Positions 13,088-36,050 of a stretch of 36,337 bases of DNA are shown one piece after another. The DNA comes from Asaia bogorensis (lineage in GTDB: Bacteria > Pseudomonadota > Alphaproteobacteria > Acetobacterales > Acetobacteraceae). Every line of letters begins with the position of its first letter. Within the stretch, counting starts at the first letter, position 1. A program made the translations under genes and the position numbers. The stretch covers positions 1 to 36,337 of the forward strand of contig CAMCJI010000010.1 of the NCBI GenBank assembly GCA_945874805.1, given 5' to 3'. The notes under the pieces are model-generated. The model was not told where the DNA came from and searched no databases. It saw nothing but the letters and a program-made list of their open reading frames with translations.

Positions 13088-13341
13088 GTCTTCTTTTTGT
13101 GAACAAAAAGAAGCAAAAAACTTTGTTCCATTTCGCCCGGCCTTTCCGCCTCCATCCGTGATCCTGGGCGAAGCGAAGGACCCCGGCTTGCCCTGCGCGG
13201 GATCGCGAGGCGGTCCGAGGGCTTCGCCGCCAAGCCACCCAGTGGAGTGCGACGACGGCGAAGCCATCAGATCCGATGCCGCCAAACCCACCCCTAAACG
13301 GATAAAGTTTTTTTGCTTCTTTTTGTTCACAAAAAGAAGAC
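13088..13341. repeat. Nested inverted-repeat intergenic element, copy 1
   Basis: Fills most of the 303-bp gap between the convergent bisC and G3E GTPase genes; no gene is visible in it. The left arm (13088-13126) and right arm (13302-13341) are near-perfect reverse complements over about 39 bp, differing by one A in a run and one base near the inner end. Each arm is itself a hairpin: CTTCTTTTTG/CAAAAAGAAG at 13090-13099/13104-13113 with loop TGAA, and at 13316-13325/13330-13339 with loop TTCA. An inner stem GGCTTCGCCG (13220-13229)/CGGCGAAGCC (13256-13265) has a 26-nt loop. Three more copies are at 18397, 25700 and 28592. It could be a bidirectional terminator, a MITE-like element or both. 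Confidence 0.85.
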
Positions 13342-29520: not shown

Positions 29521-30390
29521 CTAAACCCGTCCAAGCTCAAAGACATCCCCCTCGGCCGCCGCCACCAGCCGCACCCCGGCCTCGCCGAACGGCCCGGCTT
29601 GCAGCCCGGCCATTGCCACGTCGAGTGCCGCGTCGGACCGGTTGGGATCGTGATGCGTCATTGCGACCGTCCCCACCCCGGCCAGCGCCGCCATCCGGGC
29701 GGCGTATTCATGCGTGCCGTGCCCCCAGCCGGCATGGCCGGGATACTCCGCGGCGGTGTACTGCGCGTCATGCACGACCAGATCGGCGCCGGCGAGAAAA
29801 TCCGCATGCCGCGCATCCGCCCCGCGCACCTGGCCCAGCCCGCCGGCCAGCCCGGGATCGAACGGCTCGTGATCGCAGGCATAAACCACCGCCGCCCCAT
29901 CCGCTTCGAGCCGGTAGCCGAGCGTGGGGGCGGCGTGGTGCAGCATCTGCGCCTGCACCCGCACCCCCTCGATCTCGAACCGCCCTTCCTCCAGTGCATG
30001 AAACCGGATCGTCGCCCGCATATCCGCCAGCTTCACCGGAAAAAATGGCGCCTGCATCTGTGCCGACAGGATCTCCCGCAGCGTGTGCCCGGCATCGCGC
30101 GGCGCATAGATGTCCCACTCCCCCCCGGCCATCCACAGCGGCGCGAAGAACGGCAGGCCCTGGATATGATCCCAATGCGTATGCGTGATCAGCAGATGCC
30201 CCCGCATCTTCGGCCCCAACCGCTCGGTCAGCGCGTGGCCGAGGTCATGCGCCCCGGTCCCGGCATCCAGTACGATCAACGCGCCGGACCCCGTCACCAC
30301 CTCCAGGCAGGAAGTATTGCCCCCATGCCGCAACGTCGCCGGCCCCGGCTTGGGGATGGAGCCGCGGGTTCCCCAGAAGCGAACCTGCAT
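29521..30390 (-). CDS. MBL-fold metallo-hydrolase (possible cyclic nucleotide phosphodiesterase)
   Basis: A 289-residue metallo-beta-lactamase-fold enzyme. It begins with MQVRFWGTRGSIPKPGP, the GTRGS-type start of the RNase Z/PhnP/class II phosphodiesterase-like branch. The zinc motif is HTHWDH (70-75); further ligands are probably in LHHAAPTLGYRL, CDHE and VHDAQY, with a final histidine in MTHHDP. The ATG at 30390 shares its A with the TGA of the adenylate cyclase gene (TGATG), so the two are translationally coupled. Because it is tied to a cyclase and a cNMP-binding protein, hydrolysis of cAMP is an attractive role, but that is inference from context. The longer upstream frame is not coding. 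Confidence 0.85.
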   Translation of the reverse strand: MQVRFWGTRGSIPKPGPATLRHGGNTSCLEVVTGSGALIVLDAGTGAHDLGHALTERLGPKMRGHLLITHTHWDHIQGLPFFAPLWMAGGEWDIYAPRDAGHTLREILSAQMQAPFFPVKLADMRATIRFHALEEGRFEIEGVRVQAQMLHHAAPTLGYRLEADGAAVVYACDHEPFDPGLAGGLGQVRGADARHADFLAGADLVVHDAQYTAAEYPGHAGWGHGTHEYAARMAALAGVGTVAMTHHDPNRSDAALDVAMAGLQAGPFGEAGVRLVAAAEGDVFELGRV

Positions 30391-31289
30391 CAGTTGGCCA
30401 GATCGTAGCGCACACGCACATTCGACCCCGGCGAGGGCTCTTCCCCCAACCCCAGCGTCCCCGAACCGCGCAGCTCGCAGGCATCGCGATGCACAAACGT
30501 CGAAAACCCGCCATCCGGCAGCACAAAGGTGCCGTTGGCGCTCTGATCGGTCAGCAACACCCGCCCCTGCCGCAACTCGATCTTGGCATGCTGGCGGGAG
30601 ACGCGGGCAAACGGCACGGTCAGGCTGACCTCGTCGCTGCGTCCCAGCGTCAAGGCCGGATTGCGCTCGGAGAGCTCCACGCGCACGCGGCCCGCGCTGA
30701 GCACCATCCGCAAGCCGCCCGCCGGCCGCACAGCGGCCTTGGGCAGCGGCGCGGCCCGCATCGTCGTCGCCTCCTCGGCCTGCCAGACCACCTCGCAGAT
30801 CTCCACCGGCTCCGCCTTGCCCTTGACCTCGATCCAGCCGATCTGCCGGCAATTGTTCTGCCAGGACCCGCGCAGCTGCGCGACGGTCGTGCCGGTGGTC
30901 AATATCTCACCGCCCTTCGCCTGACTGGTCATCCGTGCCGCGACATTCACCGCATCGCCGAACACATCGCCCGAGACCGCGACCACCTGGCCGTGATGCA
31001 TCCCCACCTTGATCGCCATCCGTCTGCCGCCCGCCGGCGGCATCCCGGTCACCGCATCCTGCATCGCCACCGCGGCGGCCACTGCGATGTCCGGGGCAGG
31101 GAAGGTGGCCATCAGCTCGTCGCCGATCGTCTTCACCACCGTGCCGCCATGCTGCAGAGTCGCCCGCGCCAGCACGGCCAGGCAGCCGGCGACGACCTCG
31201 CGCGCCTGCTGATCGCCCAGCGTCTCATAGAGCCGCGTGCTGCCGGAGATATCCGCAAACAGGATCGCCAGCGTGGTTTCGGCGGCCAT
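30390..31289 (-). CDS. Class III adenylate cyclase catalytic domain fused to a C-terminal FHA domain
   Basis: A 299-residue soluble protein. The cyclase homology domain (about 5-165) has metal-binding Asp13 (FADISGST) and Asp57 (VVKTIGDELMATF), with Lys53 and Asp108 (SGDVFGDAVNVAARM) at the base-recognition positions, which favours ATP as substrate. After a linker, an FHA domain (about 203-299) has GR (216-217), SRQH (231-234) and NG (252-253), so it should bind a phosphothreonine partner. ATG 31289 is preceded by GGGGAGAG; an in-frame TTG at 31316 is less likely. It overlaps the MBL hydrolase by one base and follows the cNMP-binding gene after 73 bp. FHA-cyclase fusions link cAMP production to protein phosphorylation. 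Confidence 0.9.
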   Translation of the reverse strand: MAAETTLAILFADISGSTRLYETLGDQQAREVVAGCLAVLARATLQHGGTVVKTIGDELMATFPAPDIAVAAAVAMQDAVTGMPPAGGRRMAIKVGMHHGQVVAVSGDVFGDAVNVAARMTSQAKGGEILTTGTTVAQLRGSWQNNCRQIGWIEVKGKAEPVEICEVVWQAEEATTMRAAPLPKAAVRPAGGLRMVLSAGRVRVELSERNPALTLGRSDEVSLTVPFARVSRQHAKIELRQGRVLLTDQSANGTFVLPDGGFSTFVHRDACELRGSGTLGLGEEPSPGSNVRVRYDLAN

Positions 31290-31362
31290 CACACTCTCCC
31301 CGCACCTGCATCGCAAACCAGATCGTTACACCCCCGCCTGCGTCGAGGCCAGCCGTATCGCA

Positions 31363-31830
31363 TCACCCGCCCGCCCGCTTCAGCGCCTCGCGCGTGCTGG
31401 CCAATTCCCGGTTCGCCCGGTTGAGCCGCAGCGCCAGCACCCGGATGATCGCCACCGCCATATCCGGCGCATGGCGCAGCATATCGAGCAGCTGCGGCTT
31501 GCTGATCATCAGCGCATCCAGCGCCCCGCGGGCGCGGACGGTGGCGGTGCGCGGCAGGTCGCACAGAATGGCGATCTCGCCGACGATCTCGTGCCGGCCC
31601 AGCTCGGCCAGCACGATCTCCTGGTCCCCCGCGATCAGCACCACCTCGGCGGTGCCGTTGATCACCACATAGGCGGCATCCCCGTCCTCGCCCTGATGGA
31701 ACAGCACCTGCCGGTCCTCGAACATCAGGCGCTTGGAGGTGAAGGCGAGCAGGCGCAGGTTCGCCGTCTCCACCGAATCGAACAGCGGCACCCGCCGAAG
31801 CACTTCCAGGTCCTGTTGCAGGCTGCTCAC
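31363..31830 (-). CDS. Stand-alone cyclic nucleotide-binding domain protein
   Basis: A 155-residue protein consisting almost wholly of a CRP-like cNMP-binding beta-roll. The phosphate-binding cassette is GEIAILCDLPRTATV (84-98), with Glu85 and Arg94 as ribose and phosphate contacts. The segment LFHQGEDGDAAYVVINGTAEV is the usual early part of the roll. A C-terminal helix (about 115-150) replaces the DNA-binding domain of CRP, so it is not a transcription factor by itself. It starts at a GTG (31830) with GGGAGAG upstream, 25 bp behind the degenerate ABC gene. It probably senses cAMP made by the downstream cyclase and may act on the ABC-like protein (inference). Confidence 0.88.
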   Translation of the reverse strand: MSSLQQDLEVLRRVPLFDSVETANLRLLAFTSKRLMFEDRQVLFHQGEDGDAAYVVINGTAEVVLIAGDQEIVLAELGRHEIVGEIAILCDLPRTATVRARGALDALMISKPQLLDMLRHAPDMAVAIIRVLALRLNRANRELASTREALKRAGG

Positions 31831-31855
31831 GCGCGATCTCTCCCGATATCCGTTC

Positions 31856-34546
31856 TCAAGCCGTCAACCTCGCGAGCGCCCCGCCGGCCGCCCGCAGCGC
31901 CGTCGGCGCTCCGTCCTCGACCACCCGGCCATCGTCGATCACCACCGCCCGGTCGAACAGCTCGGCCATCGCCGGGTTGGCCAGCGTCCATACCACGCCG
32001 AACCCCTGCGGACCGCGCGCCACGTCGAGCACGCGCTCCATGATCTGCAGCTGGCTCTGCGTATCGATGTTCGATAGCGCCCGCTGGGCGATCAGCAGAT
32101 CCGGCCGGCGCAGCAGCGCGCGGGCCAGGGCGAGCTTCTGCTTCTGCCCCGGGTTGAGCCGCTTGCCACCGTTGCCGACATTGAATGCCAGCCCCGCCTC
32201 ATGCACCAGCGCCGTCAGCTCCTGGGCGCCGACCACCCGGCGCAGGATGACGCTGATCCGGCTGTCGGCGGCGGCGACCCCGTAGGCGATGCGGCCGAAC
32301 AGGATGTTGTCCTGGATGGTGGCCGCCATGCTGATCGCCGCGCGGTCATAGGGCACGAACTTGCCGGTCCCGCCGGGCTCCGCGTGGAAAGCCCGCCGCG
32401 CCGCCAGGATATGCGCGCGCAGCTCGTCGGTCAGCAGGCCCAGGCGGTCGCGCGGTTCGACGTAGTTGAAGGCGAGGTCGAGGAACAGCGCCCGGTCGGC
32501 TTCGGTCGCGGCGGCGAAGCCGCGCGCCTCGACGCGGTTGGCAGCGGCCTTGGTGTCGGCGAAGCGCTCGGGCTGCATCAGCGTCAGGCGCTGGAACATC
32601 GGGCTGTCGGGGCTGAGGCCGTCAAAGATCTCCAGGATGGTGCCGGCCGCGGCCAGGCCGAGGTCGAACAGCAGGGAATCCAGCCCATCCTTGGCCAGCA
32701 CCGACCGCAGCGCCGGGTTGCCAGCGAGCTGGGCCATGCCGTAGCCCGGATCGACGGGGGTGCCGAACAGCAGGTTCTCGGCGATGCTGGCCTGCACGGC
32801 GTAATGCGCGGGGTCGAACTCCTCGACCAGATGCAGCATGCCTGCGGCTTCCAGCTCGGTGCGGAAGCGGCCGCGGGCGGTGACCAGTGCGGCCCGGTCG
32901 GTCTCGCCCGTGTCCGGCGGGAGGGCGGCGTTGAAGCCGAGGCTGAAGATGTCGTCATCCAGCCCCGTCAGCCGCAGCATTTCCGTGATCCGCCCGCGCA
33001 GAGCGGCCGGGCCTTCCACCCCGAGGACGTCGTAGTCGATCCAGTCGCCCTCATTGTCCAGACGGATGCCGCCGGTGTCGATCACCCGGTGCAGGGAGGT
33101 GCGGCCGAGGCCGTGCGTGCCGTCGAAGCCGCCGGCGCGCCGGCGGGCGCCGCCCAACAGCGCGTCGAGGATGCTGCCGGCAGTGAAGTAGGTCTCCGGC
33201 CCGGCATAGGAGATGCGGCGCGTCAGCTGCTCGGCGGGCCACTCCCGCACCTCGCGCCCGGCGATCAGGAAGCTGCCGGACTTCGCCTCACCCAGCCGGG
33301 CCAGCAGCTCGACCATGGTGTCGCCGCCGCCTTTCGCCGGGCCGCAGATGGCGATCAGCTCGGCCGCCTCGAAGCGCAGCGAGAGCTGATCGAGCAGCCT
33401 GGCGCCGGCGTAGTCCTCGACGGTGACGTTGTAGAGCGCGATCTCGCCGGCGATATGCGGCGCCTCGGTGCCATCGGCCGGCTTGACCGGCGGTAGCAGG
33501 GTCAGCCCGTCGCGGTCGAACTGCTCGATCACCTGGCGGTATTTGACGTCGACATCCATGCGCTGCTGATCCCAGTCGATCAGCTCCTTCACCGGGGTCG
33601 GCAGGTCCTTGTAGGCGGCGATGACGGCGACGAGTTGGCCGATGTCCAGGCTGCCCTTGATCGCGAAGTAGCCACCGATCACGTAGAACAGGAACGGCGT
33701 CATCTGCGCCAACATGTTGTTGAGGAACTTCACGAAGAACTTCCACTGATACAGCGCGAAGCGGATCGCGAAGATCTTCGTCAGCCGTTGGGCCACATCC
33801 GCGCGCTGCCAGTCCGCCGAGCCGTTGGTGCGGATCGAGGGCATGTCCTCGACCACTTCGGATATCCGGCCGGCAAGCGCGCGGGCGGTGAGCTGGCGCT
33901 GGCGGCCGAGCTCGATCTGCTTGCGGCGCAGGCGCGGGATCACGATGCCCTGCACCAGCAGCAGGGCCACCGCGATCATCCCGAGAGAGGGGCTCTGGAC
34001 GAGGATGAAGCCGAGGGCCGTGACGATCTGGCCGGCGAGGAAGACGGGCTGGACGAAGGCATCGCCGATGAAGCCGCCCATCGGCTCCACCTCGTCCTTG
34101 ATCATCGTCGCGACTTCGGCGGATTTGACCCGGCGGAATTCGCCGAGGGGAAAGCGCAGCACCCGGTCGAACAGCTCGTAGCGGAGTTGCTGGAGCATCC
34201 GCTCGCCCAGCCGGCCCTTGAAGGTGTTGATGTAGAATTTCAGCAGGCCGTTGAGGATGACGAGTGCCAGGAACAGGCTGGCCAGCAGCAGCAAGGCTTC
34301 CAGTCGGTGTGCCTCGAACCCGTCGAACAGCCGCAGGCTGCCCCAGGGGGTCGGCACGCTGAGCTGCATGACGGTCTGCGTCGCGTCATTGGCGAAGCCG
34401 CGGCCCTGGATGGGGCCGTTGATGATGGTCTTTGGCAGATCGAGCAGCACGAAGCCGGCCGGCATCGATGCCAGGATGACAAAGATGATCCATATCTGAT
34501 CGCGGCTGGTCTGCCGCCAGATGTAGCGGAAGATGTTGGTTTCCAT
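31856..34546 (-). CDS. ABC exporter-like membrane protein with a degenerate, expanded nucleotide-binding domain
   Basis: An 896-residue protein. Residues 1-330 are an ABC-exporter transmembrane domain (helices near 18-38, 81-103, 163-200, 272-298) with coupling segment RYELFDRVLRFPLGEF. The nucleotide-binding domain starts near 365 but every catalytic motif is altered. Walker A reads CGPAKGGGDTM (401-411) without the Lys-Ser/Thr pair. The Q-loop reads AGPETYF. The signature is LNPGQKQ (797-803). Walker B is LLIAQRAL without Asp-Glu, and the H-loop position is TLANP. Only the D-loop (SNID, 825-828) is close to normal. Some 300 extra residues lie between Q-loop and signature. ATP hydrolysis is unlikely. 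First gene of a unit with the cNMP-binding, cyclase and MBL genes. Confidence 0.85.
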   Translation of the reverse strand: METNIFRYIWRQTSRDQIWIIFVILASMPAGFVLLDLPKTIINGPIQGRGFANDATQTVMQLSVPTPWGSLRLFDGFEAHRLEALLLLASLFLALVILNGLLKFYINTFKGRLGERMLQQLRYELFDRVLRFPLGEFRRVKSAEVATMIKDEVEPMGGFIGDAFVQPVFLAGQIVTALGFILVQSPSLGMIAVALLLVQGIVIPRLRRKQIELGRQRQLTARALAGRISEVVEDMPSIRTNGSADWQRADVAQRLTKIFAIRFALYQWKFFVKFLNNMLAQMTPFLFYVIGGYFAIKGSLDIGQLVAVIAAYKDLPTPVKELIDWDQQRMDVDVKYRQVIEQFDRDGLTLLPPVKPADGTEAPHIAGEIALYNVTVEDYAGARLLDQLSLRFEAAELIAICGPAKGGGDTMVELLARLGEAKSGSFLIAGREVREWPAEQLTRRISYAGPETYFTAGSILDALLGGARRRAGGFDGTHGLGRTSLHRVIDTGGIRLDNEGDWIDYDVLGVEGPAALRGRITEMLRLTGLDDDIFSLGFNAALPPDTGETDRAALVTARGRFRTELEAAGMLHLVEEFDPAHYAVQASIAENLLFGTPVDPGYGMAQLAGNPALRSVLAKDGLDSLLFDLGLAAAGTILEIFDGLSPDSPMFQRLTLMQPERFADTKAAANRVEARGFAAATEADRALFLDLAFNYVEPRDRLGLLTDELRAHILAARRAFHAEPGGTGKFVPYDRAAISMAATIQDNILFGRIAYGVAAADSRISVILRRVVGAQELTALVHEAGLAFNVGNGGKRLNPGQKQKLALARALLRRPDLLIAQRALSNIDTQSQLQIMERVLDVARGPQGFGVVWTLANPAMAELFDRAVVIDDGRVVEDGAPTALRAAGGALARLTA

Positions 34547-34609: not shown

Positions 34610-35311
34610 TCAGCCCACACCCAGGAAACGTTCGAGCAGGGCCGCGTCGGCGGCCAACGCCGCGCTGGTACCGGCGTGGACGACGCCTCCGCGCTCCAGG
34701 ATCACGGCATGGTCGGTGATGCCGAGGATCTTGCGGGCGTGCTGTTCGACGACGATGGCGGACATGCCCTCGGCGCGGATGACCTGGCCGATGGCGGCCA
34801 GCACCTCCTCGACCAGGATGGGGGCGAGGCCCTCGGTCGGCTCGTCGAGCAGCAGCAGGCGGGGGTTGAGGACCAGCGCGCGGCCGATGGCCAGCATCTG
34901 CTGTTCGCCGCCGGAGAGCTGGCGGCCCATGTTGGCGCGGCGCTCCTCCAGCCGGGGGAACATGGCGTAGATGCGCGCGAGGCCCCAGGGGCCGGGGCGG
35001 GCGACGGCGGTGAGGTTCTCCTCCACCGTCAGCGATTTGAAGATGTTGCGCTCCTGCGGCACCCAGCCCAGCCCGGCTTCGACCCGCTTGTTGGGGGAGA
35101 GTGCGGAGATGTCCGCACCGTCCAGCAGGATGCGCCCGCCGCCCTGGCGGGTGAGGCCCATGATGGAGCGCAGCAGCGTGGTCTTGCCCATGCCGTTGCG
35201 GCCGAGCAAAGCGAGCGACTCGCCGGCGGCCAGGGTGAGGGAGAGGCCGGCCAGCACCGAGGCGCCGCCGTAGCCGGCCCGCAGAGAGTCGATTTCGAGG
35301 ATGTCAGCCAT
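34610..35311 (-). CDS. livF: ABC transporter ATP-binding protein LivF (second system)
   Basis: A 233-residue ATPase of a second Liv-type importer. Motifs are intact: Walker A LLGRNGMGKTTLL, Q-loop GWVPQERNIFKSL, signature LSGGEQQMLAIGRAL, Walker B LLLLDEPTEGLAP and the H-loop region AIVVEQHAR. The ATG at 35311 lies inside the end of livG (8-bp overlap); the longer frame upstream is a shadow. It is clearly different in sequence from livF at 7643-8356, so the two systems are not a recent duplication. The VPQERNIFKSLTV form is typical of LivF in amide/urea and branched-chain systems alike. Confidence 0.93.
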   Translation of the reverse strand: MADILEIDSLRAGYGGASVLAGLSLTLAAGESLALLGRNGMGKTTLLRSIMGLTRQGGGRILLDGADISALSPNKRVEAGLGWVPQERNIFKSLTVEENLTAVARPGPWGLARIYAMFPRLEERRANMGRQLSGGEQQMLAIGRALVLNPRLLLLDEPTEGLAPILVEEVLAAIGQVIRAEGMSAIVVEQHARKILGITDHAVILERGGVVHAGTSAALAADAALLERFLGVG

Positions 35312-36050
35312 GCGCCTCGCCAAGATAGACCGCGCGGACGCGCGGGTCGGCGGAAATGATCTCGGGGGCGCCTTGCGTGAGGAGTTCGCCGCCGACGAGG
35401 ACGAAGATGTGACGGGCGAACCTGAACACCAGATCCATATCGTGTTCGATGAGCAGAACCGCAACCTCTGCCGGCAGGGCGGCCACCGCGTCGAGGATGG
35501 CGTCGCGCTCATCCTCCGGCACGCCGGCAGCGGGTTCGTCGAGCAGCAGCACGCGCGGCGCGCAGGCGATGGCGACCGCGATCTCCAGCAGGCGCTGGCG
35601 GCCGTAGGGGAGTTCGGCGGTCGGGCGGTCGAGCACGTCGAGCAGGCCGAAGCGGGCGAGGATATCGACGGATTCGTCGATAATGGCGGGCTGGCGGCCC
35701 ATGCGCTGCCAGAACCGCGTGTCCTGGCCCAGGCGGCGGGCGACGGCCAGGGCGACGCTTTCGATCGGGGTCAGGGCGGGGAAAAGCTGGTTGATCTGGA
35801 ACGTGCGGACGAGGCCGCGCGCCACCCGGCGGTCCGCGCGCAGGCCGGTGATGTCGGCCCCGTCGAGATGGATGCTGCCGGCGGTGGGGCGCAGCACGCC
35901 GGTCAGCAGGTTGATGAAGGTGGTTTTGCCGGCGCCGTTCGGGCCGATCAGCGCGTGCCGGGCGCCGACGGGCAGGCTGAGGGAGATGTCGCGGTTGGCG
36001 ACCAGGCCGCCGAAGCTGACGCCGAGGCCGCGGGTTTCCAGTGCGCTCAT
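35304..36050 (-). CDS. livG: ABC transporter ATP-binding protein LivG (second system)
   Basis: A 248-residue ATPase. Walker A is LIGPNGAGKTTFI, followed by LVRTFQINQLFPALTPIES; the signature region is LPYGRQRLLEIAVAIA, the LivG variant. Walker B is LLLDEPAAGVPEDER and the H-loop VLLIEHDMDLVF. Compared with typical LivG (about 255-260 residues) it is slightly short, and the insert before the signature is compact. Its ATG overlaps the livM stop in an ATGA junction, and it overlaps livF by 8 bp, so the genes are translationally coupled. Confidence 0.93.
   Translation of the reverse strand: MSALETRGLGVSFGGLVANRDISLSLPVGARHALIGPNGAGKTTFINLLTGVLRPTAGSIHLDGADITGLRADRRVARGLVRTFQINQLFPALTPIESVALAVARRLGQDTRFWQRMGRQPAIIDESVDILARFGLLDVLDRPTAELPYGRQRLLEIAVAIACAPRVLLLDEPAAGVPEDERDAILDAVAALPAEVAVLLIEHDMDLVFRFARHIFVLVGGELLTQGAPEIISADPRVRAVYLGEAHG

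Follow-up and report, generated by a model that had tools for sequence, protein, structure and literature searches.

ATP-binding cassette (ABC) proteins do not always work as pumps: CFTR and SUR serve as a gated channel or a regulator, and heterodimeric exporters with one degenerate site, whose degenerate halves normally still bind ATP, are well known. An ABC exporter that depends on a cyclic-nucleotide-binding domain (CNBD) has been described in Nostoc, namely HetC, in which the CNBD is required for function and binds ppGpp, not cyclic AMP (cAMP) (PMC10986499), such that the presence of a CNBD need not mean cAMP. Here, we analyzed positions 1 to 36,337 of a contig from Asaia bogorensis (GenBank assembly GCA_945874805.1, contig CAMCJI010000010.1; this whole stretch is referred to as the window), in which four consecutive minus-strand genes at 29521-34546 encode an ABC exporter-like protein (pABC), a stand-alone cyclic-nucleotide-binding protein (also termed CNBD), a fusion of a class III nucleotidyl cyclase with an FHA domain (cyclase-FHA), and a metallo-β-lactamase-fold hydrolase (MBL). 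An original prediction, made from the letters alone, had read these genes as a four-gene cAMP system. Its coordinates, strands, and domains were borne out, with Pfam assigning ABC_membrane and a broken ABC_tran to pABC, cNMP_binding to CNBD, Guanylate_cyc and FHA to the cyclase, and Lactamase_B_2 to MBL. As for the system itself, what is conserved is the pABC-CNBD pair, whose members adjoin each other or are fused in essentially all of the 124 pABC loci compared; cyclases and MBL recur near this pair, but the exact set of four is not conserved.

The likeness of pABC to HetC lies in an ABC-exporter body under the (here, putative) control of a CNBD (PMC10986499); HetC, however, has a fused N-terminal CNBD, a C39 peptidase, and an essential ATPase, whereas pABC has no peptidase domain, appears to be ATPase-dead, and is accompanied by a CNBD that is either separate or C-terminal. 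The transmembrane domain of pABC is of the exporter kind (Pfam ABC_membrane, 70.4 bits against a cut-off of 28), and its best curated match is to the MsbA-type lipid flippases and homodimeric exporters, which share the same transmembrane fold; pABC nevertheless reaches only 162 bits against their cut-off of 602, its nucleotide-binding motifs are lost, and it carries a repeat-bearing insertion. We rejected the view that pABC is a typical exporter of the MsbA or bacteriocin type, as it falls under every curated cut-off, and CNBD likewise stays below that of TIGR03896, a bacteriocin-transport-associated CNBD protein (46.6 bits against 161). Kinship with CFTR and SUR is at the superfamily level only, and the putative control of pABC is by a CNBD in place of a regulatory domain or a potassium channel. 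The records that we saw annotate the family merely as 'ABC transporter'. Further, in the open-licence literature, our searches for a named system, the pABC family, the gene cluster, and inactive or ATP-independent ABC transporters returned no matching description, in line with the original prediction, which names no known pathway for this set of genes, with the limit that an account in a subscription journal could be missed.

The loss of catalytic motifs that had been noted in the window pABC extends to the whole family. In the window protein, Walker A reads GPAKGGGD, Walker B reads LLIAQR, the signature reads LNPGQ, and the H-loop His is lost. The complete catalytic set (Walker A Lys and Ser/Thr together with Walker B Asp and Glu) is absent from the window pABC and occurs in 0 of 126 homologues, of which 38 keep the Walker A Lys, almost none the Ser/Thr that follows it, and 105 have an Asn in place of the Walker B Asp. 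The frequency of this Asn indicates a conserved change, not random decay, and the motifs taken together suggest that the pABC family appears unable to hydrolyze ATP. We rejected an ordinary degenerate or frame-damaged pseudogene, given the open frame, the many full-length homologues, and the family-wide loss of catalysis. Separately, pABC frames with in-frame stop codons were seen in G077:C15 and G245:C15, which indicates that decaying copies exist in some genomes, and proteins of ~880-1016 residues in G318, G541, G548, G563, and G664 align with pABC only over its second half (residues ~514-889) and are perhaps a divergent branch.

A confident AlphaFold2 model of pABC, built on an alignment of 64 sequences, reached a mean predicted local distance difference test score (pLDDT) of 87.8 and a predicted template modeling score of 0.84, and its best structural matches are type IV exporters, among them BSEP, P-glycoprotein, PCAT1, TmrAB, and MsbA. 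The repeat-bearing insertion, of ~280 residues, lies between the Q-loop and the signature helix. Profile comparison identified one helical segment in three copies (motif xxENLLFG) in the nucleotide-binding domain: in pairwise HHalign comparisons, the copies match each other with probabilities of 94, 94, and 98 percent, while control segments of pABC stay at <1 percent. No description of such a triplicated segment in a nucleotide-binding domain was found in the literature searched. The conserved Walker B Asn, together with the added repeats, argues that the nucleotide-binding domain has been put to a new use under selection. Among the structural matches, TmrAB and MsRv1273c/72c share with pABC an exporter fold with non-catalytic nucleotide-binding residues, and pABC could by analogy be the degenerate half of a heterodimeric exporter, with an active half encoded elsewhere. 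We regard this as quite improbable: the catalytic loss is more complete in pABC, where even the Walker A Ser/Thr is almost always gone, whereas degenerate halves normally bind ATP; no active ABC-exporter half was identified among the annotated genes of ten extended clusters (40 kb read in ten genomes, picked for a nearby MBL); and the CNBD fusions described below sit on pABC itself.

The 124 loci comprise 80 named loci with flanks (the best 80 of >500 relatives in a scan of public genomes, weighted towards Rhizobiaceae) and 44 from a second genome search. The CNBD gene is the next one after pABC, on the same strand, in 117 of them (median gap 41 bp), and is fused to the C-terminus of pABC in six; in the last (L133), it occupies the same place in a frame that overlaps, and is apparently adjacent. 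So constant a partnership, and the fusions, point to pABC itself as the target of CNBD. The window CNBD matches the PKA regulatory subunits and CRP, and its phosphate-binding cassette, GEIAILCDLPRTATV, contains the Glu and the Arg of the cAMP type. The strict cassette pattern is found in 103 of 124 CNBD relatives, with most of the listed exceptions being off at one position. The record for the partner in Sinorhizobium meliloti (L228 16809-17273) calls it a Crp/Fnr family transcriptional regulator; at 154 residues, this partner is too short for a DNA-binding part.

A recurring cluster surrounds this pair, comprising two GT28-type and two GT4-type glycosyltransferases, a histidine phosphatase, and an importer of the dipeptide type (SBP_bac_5), followed by pABC, CNBD, and often Methyltransf_17. 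This usual setting was missing from the original prediction, as was the LivF/UrtE-like gene described below. Glycosyltransferases are near pABC in 59 of the 80 named loci (8 kb) and in 31 of 40 diverse loci (7 kb), and all ten extended clusters contain them in conserved order; each has MBL nearby and then a methyltransferase-like gene, and five also have a class III cyclase within that stretch. The glycosyltransferase setting points to a cell-surface glycan. The gene pRL110056, needed for root colonization by R. leguminosarum (PMC11103875), may belong to the cluster by gene order; this mapping is unverified, and we do not treat it as evidence. Neighbors as constant as the glycosyltransferases would also suit a non-transporting pABC, namely a scaffold or receptor that places these enzymes at the membrane, with CNBD tuning the assembly by cAMP. 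While such a role agrees with the family-wide loss of catalytic residues, as well as with the extended clusters, whose annotated genes yielded no ABC-exporter-type active half, we think it unlikely, if worth keeping in mind, because the transmembrane domain, which contains many invariant positions between residues 100 and 343, is at least as conserved as the rest of the protein; this suggests a functional pathway or gate.

Near pABC, class III cyclases of various kinds recur in some lineages. The metal Asp motifs of the window cyclase are both preserved, as are its KTIGD lysine and NVAAR motif (FADISGST, KTIGDELM, and GDVFGDAVNVAARM, as aligned to solved cyclases), and with them the two metal Asp residues, the substrate Lys, and the Asn/Arg transition-state motif of class III enzymes. 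Its FHA domain (Pfam, 39.5 bits against a cut-off of 20.7) retains the phosphothreonine-binding residues in LGRSDEV (GRS), VSRQHAK (SxxH), and SANGTFV (NG). Judged by this domain, a Ser/Thr kinase could exert control; the window genome encodes one such kinase, on another contig, and five class III cyclases. Close cyclase-FHA relatives are rare (4 of 239 other genomes), none of the four has MBL, CNBD, or pABC within ~1.5 kb, and cyclase-FHA was seen beside pABC in this window alone. The co-occurrence of all four genes, which the original prediction had proposed to survey, is thus not kept. A class III cyclase of any kind lies within 8 kb of pABC in 37 of the 80 named loci and within 7 kb in only 4 of the 40 diverse loci. 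Three architectures recur near pABC, namely cyclase-FHA in the window, a ferredoxin-membrane cyclase, and a cyclase of ~460 residues. Other lineages have one of the latter two in place of cyclase-FHA, which is not a fixed member of the pABC system and seems to be one choice among several class III cyclases that can stand in for one another. CyaC of S. meliloti, a membrane class III cyclase (PMC10463352), is an analogue of the ferredoxin-membrane cyclases near pABC, whereas the window cyclase is a soluble FHA fusion. In 21 of the 80 loci, DUF3095 proteins occur among the cyclase genes near pABC (e.g., L035 11541-12725, L019 15716-16849, and L048 5019-6182); no mention of DUF3095 was found in the open-licence literature searched.

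MBL belongs to Lactamase_B_2 (PF12706, 59.8 bits), and its metal-binding motif, THTHWDH, fits the [T/S]HxHxDH pattern of atypical class II phosphodiesterases, a motif type that also occurs in RNase Z relatives and does not discriminate between the two. It shares both fold and motif with the atypical class II phosphodiesterases Rv1339, YhfI, and CpdA, a group said to be close to RNase Z (PMC9293780), but scores only 29.7 bits against the 400-bit cut-off of the named phosphodiesterase model, NF041851. The predicted structure of MBL (pLDDT 92.5) is nearest to RNase Z, followed by a Bacillus anthracis ELAC homologue, YhfI, and PhnP-type enzymes, with Apyc1 and yeast PDE1 lower. MBL is a candidate cAMP phosphodiesterase of the atypical class II kind. 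That it is instead an RNA-processing, RNase Z-like enzyme is an unlikely alternative, if worth keeping in mind, which draws on its best sequence and fold matches being RNase Z and on no gene of the window genome passing the RNase Z cut-off, with MBL as the best match (assembly 91% complete). Its score against TIGR02651 is, however, far under that cut-off (67.1 of 292.95 bits), YhfI and PhnP fit almost equally well, THTHWDH suits the atypical phosphodiesterases, and MBL is repeatedly coupled to cyclases. A housekeeping RNase Z was rejected on this score, yet no better candidate was found in the genome.

The coupling of MBL to pABC is statistical. MBL is present in 70 of 77 pABC-positive and in 39 of 162 pABC-negative genomes (odds ratio 31, p ~7e-24, uncorrected for phylogeny), and the two share a contig at a distance of <=25 kb in 24 of the 70 genomes with both. 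MBL lies within 8 kb of pABC in 34 of the 80 named loci and within 7 kb in one of the 40 diverse loci; in 15 of those 34, it adjoins a cyclase on the same strand, in both gene orders, with four-base overlaps in L022 and L042. In pABC-negative genomes, 13 of 20 MBL loci feature an OmpR-type response regulator next to MBL, and one or two have a cyclase there, for which reason a universal MBL-cyclase pairing was rejected. This other partner and the sub-cut-off scores weigh against a fixed cAMP role of MBL. The OmpR-type regulator adjoining MBL (L176 4238-8431, L194-L213) is widespread in Alphaproteobacteria, also without pABC.

We found pABC in 128 of 385 sampled alphaproteobacterial genomes (about a third); outside this class, a phylum sample gave one weak match, and the public-genome scan adds single gamma- and betaproteobacterial cases. 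It is absent from ~40 other sampled genomes of the window's own family, which makes lateral gain or wide loss likely. The window genome contains a second pABC-CNBD pair on contig C109 (L009 1111-5992, G000:C109), with 40 percent identity to the window copy, followed by a ferredoxin-membrane cyclase (the genes overlap by ATG/GTG) and surrounded by importer genes, a methyltransferase, and a glycosyltransferase; this pair looks like the canonical pABC locus of the genome. The four window genes could be a chance neighborhood, with pABC-CNBD inserted beside an unrelated cyclase-MBL pair. The absence of pABC from those same-family genomes, the rarity of cyclase-FHA and the lack of such neighbors within ~1.5 kb of its relatives, and the company of MBL in pABC-negative genomes, often a response regulator and rarely a cyclase, would fit this, but the strong MBL-pABC co-occurrence, the shared contigs in 24 genomes, and the recurrence of MBL-cyclase adjacency around pABC in both orders make it improbable.

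Within the window (Table 1), gaps of 25 bp and 73 bp separate pABC from CNBD and CNBD from cyclase-FHA, for which an alternative TTG start upstream, at 31316, is possible. The cyclase and the hydrolase do share one base, as predicted: their junction is TGATG, with base 30390 common to the cyclase stop and the MBL ATG. The retained motifs of cyclase, FHA, CNBD, and MBL indicate that the genes are real and intact-looking. On the same strand, the end of a LivF/UrtE-like gene lies 63 bp upstream of pABC, and the pABC transcript may therefore begin further up, with the two genes co-transcribed; no such gene was seen beside pABC in the relatives' loci. Elsewhere in the window, an AT-rich short repeat (core AAAAAGAAnCAAAAAACTTT) occurs at 13105 (+), 25715 (+), 28607 (+), and 28836 (-) in an otherwise GC-rich genome, and its copies at 25.7 and 28.6 kb are alike over ~52 bp.

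Table 1. Features of the pABC locus in the window.
Feature	Position	Strand	Details
MBL-fold metallohydrolase (MBL)	29521..30390	-	289 aa, ATG start
Metal-binding motif THTHWDH of MBL	30166..30186	-	
Class III nucleotidyl cyclase-FHA fusion	30390..31289	-	299 aa, ATG start
FHA domain, ~residues 195-265	30495..30707	-	Pfam
Cyclase catalytic domain, residues 6-160	30810..31274	-	Pfam
CNBD, stand-alone, without DNA-binding part	31363..31830	-	155 aa, GTG start; Pfam PF00027
Phosphate-binding cassette GEIAILCDLPRTATV of CNBD	31537..31581	-	CRP/PKA type
pABC, ABC exporter-like, with apparently dead, enlarged nucleotide-binding domain	31856..34546	-	896 aa, ATG start
Degenerate Walker B and D-loop DLLIAQRALSNID, residues 816-828	32063..32101	-	
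Helical segment copy 3, residues 722-800, ATIQDNILFG	32147..32383	-	HHalign
Helical segment copy 2, residues 568-650, ASIAENLLFG	32597..32845	-	HHalign to copy 3, probability 98%
Helical segment copy 1, residues 437-545, GSILDALLGG	32912..33238	-	HHalign to copies 2 and 3, probability 94%
Degenerate Walker A GPAKGGGDTM, residues 402-411	33314..33343	-	
Transmembrane domain of pABC, residues 1-343	33518..34546	-	Pfam ABC_membrane; AlphaFold2 helices
LivF/UrtE-like importer ATPase gene	34610..35434	-	ends 63 bp upstream of pABC

The explanation that we favor, tentatively, is a pABC-CNBD complex that is switched by cAMP and gates or licenses the export or assembly of a cell-surface glycan. We infer that pABC and CNBD would form one membrane complex, in which pABC would be a homodimer-like ABC-exporter body with non-hydrolytic nucleotide-binding domains rebuilt with the three segment copies. 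A nearby class III cyclase would make cAMP, and CNBD, on binding it, would dock on the nucleotide-binding domains and replace ATP as the switch for the state of the transmembrane part, the glycan being made by the glycosyltransferases that usually adjoin the pair. In the window, the cyclase would additionally be tied to phosphothreonine signaling through FHA, and the coupled MBL probably hydrolyzes a phosphodiester, perhaps cAMP. Several points weigh against this explanation. The scarcity of cyclases at the diverse loci means that cAMP need not be locally made; by analogy with HetC, CNBD could have a ligand other than cAMP; pABC, for which transport is putative, could be only a scaffold; the MBL-pABC statistic ignores phylogeny, and the 80 named loci lean towards Rhizobiaceae; and no glycosyltransferase is next to the window pABC, although one sits with its paralogue on another contig. 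That the pair is, in full, a new ligand-gated membrane device, i.e., a non-hydrolytic ABC exporter whose nucleotide-binding domain was reshaped by an internal triplication, which a cyclic nucleotide opens via an obligate sensor and which controls glycan export in many Alphaproteobacteria, is doubtful.

In summary, our analyses identified a widespread ABC family that is apparently ATPase-dead and has an invariant cyclic-nucleotide sensor as its partner, which suggests an undescribed cAMP control of the cell surface via pABC-CNBD. If CNBD switches pABC, this would be a direct, non-transcriptional cAMP output in bacteria that have many cyclases and few known receptors, and it would link cAMP to the cell-surface polysaccharides of symbionts such as Sinorhizobium and Rhizobium, where the link is testable.

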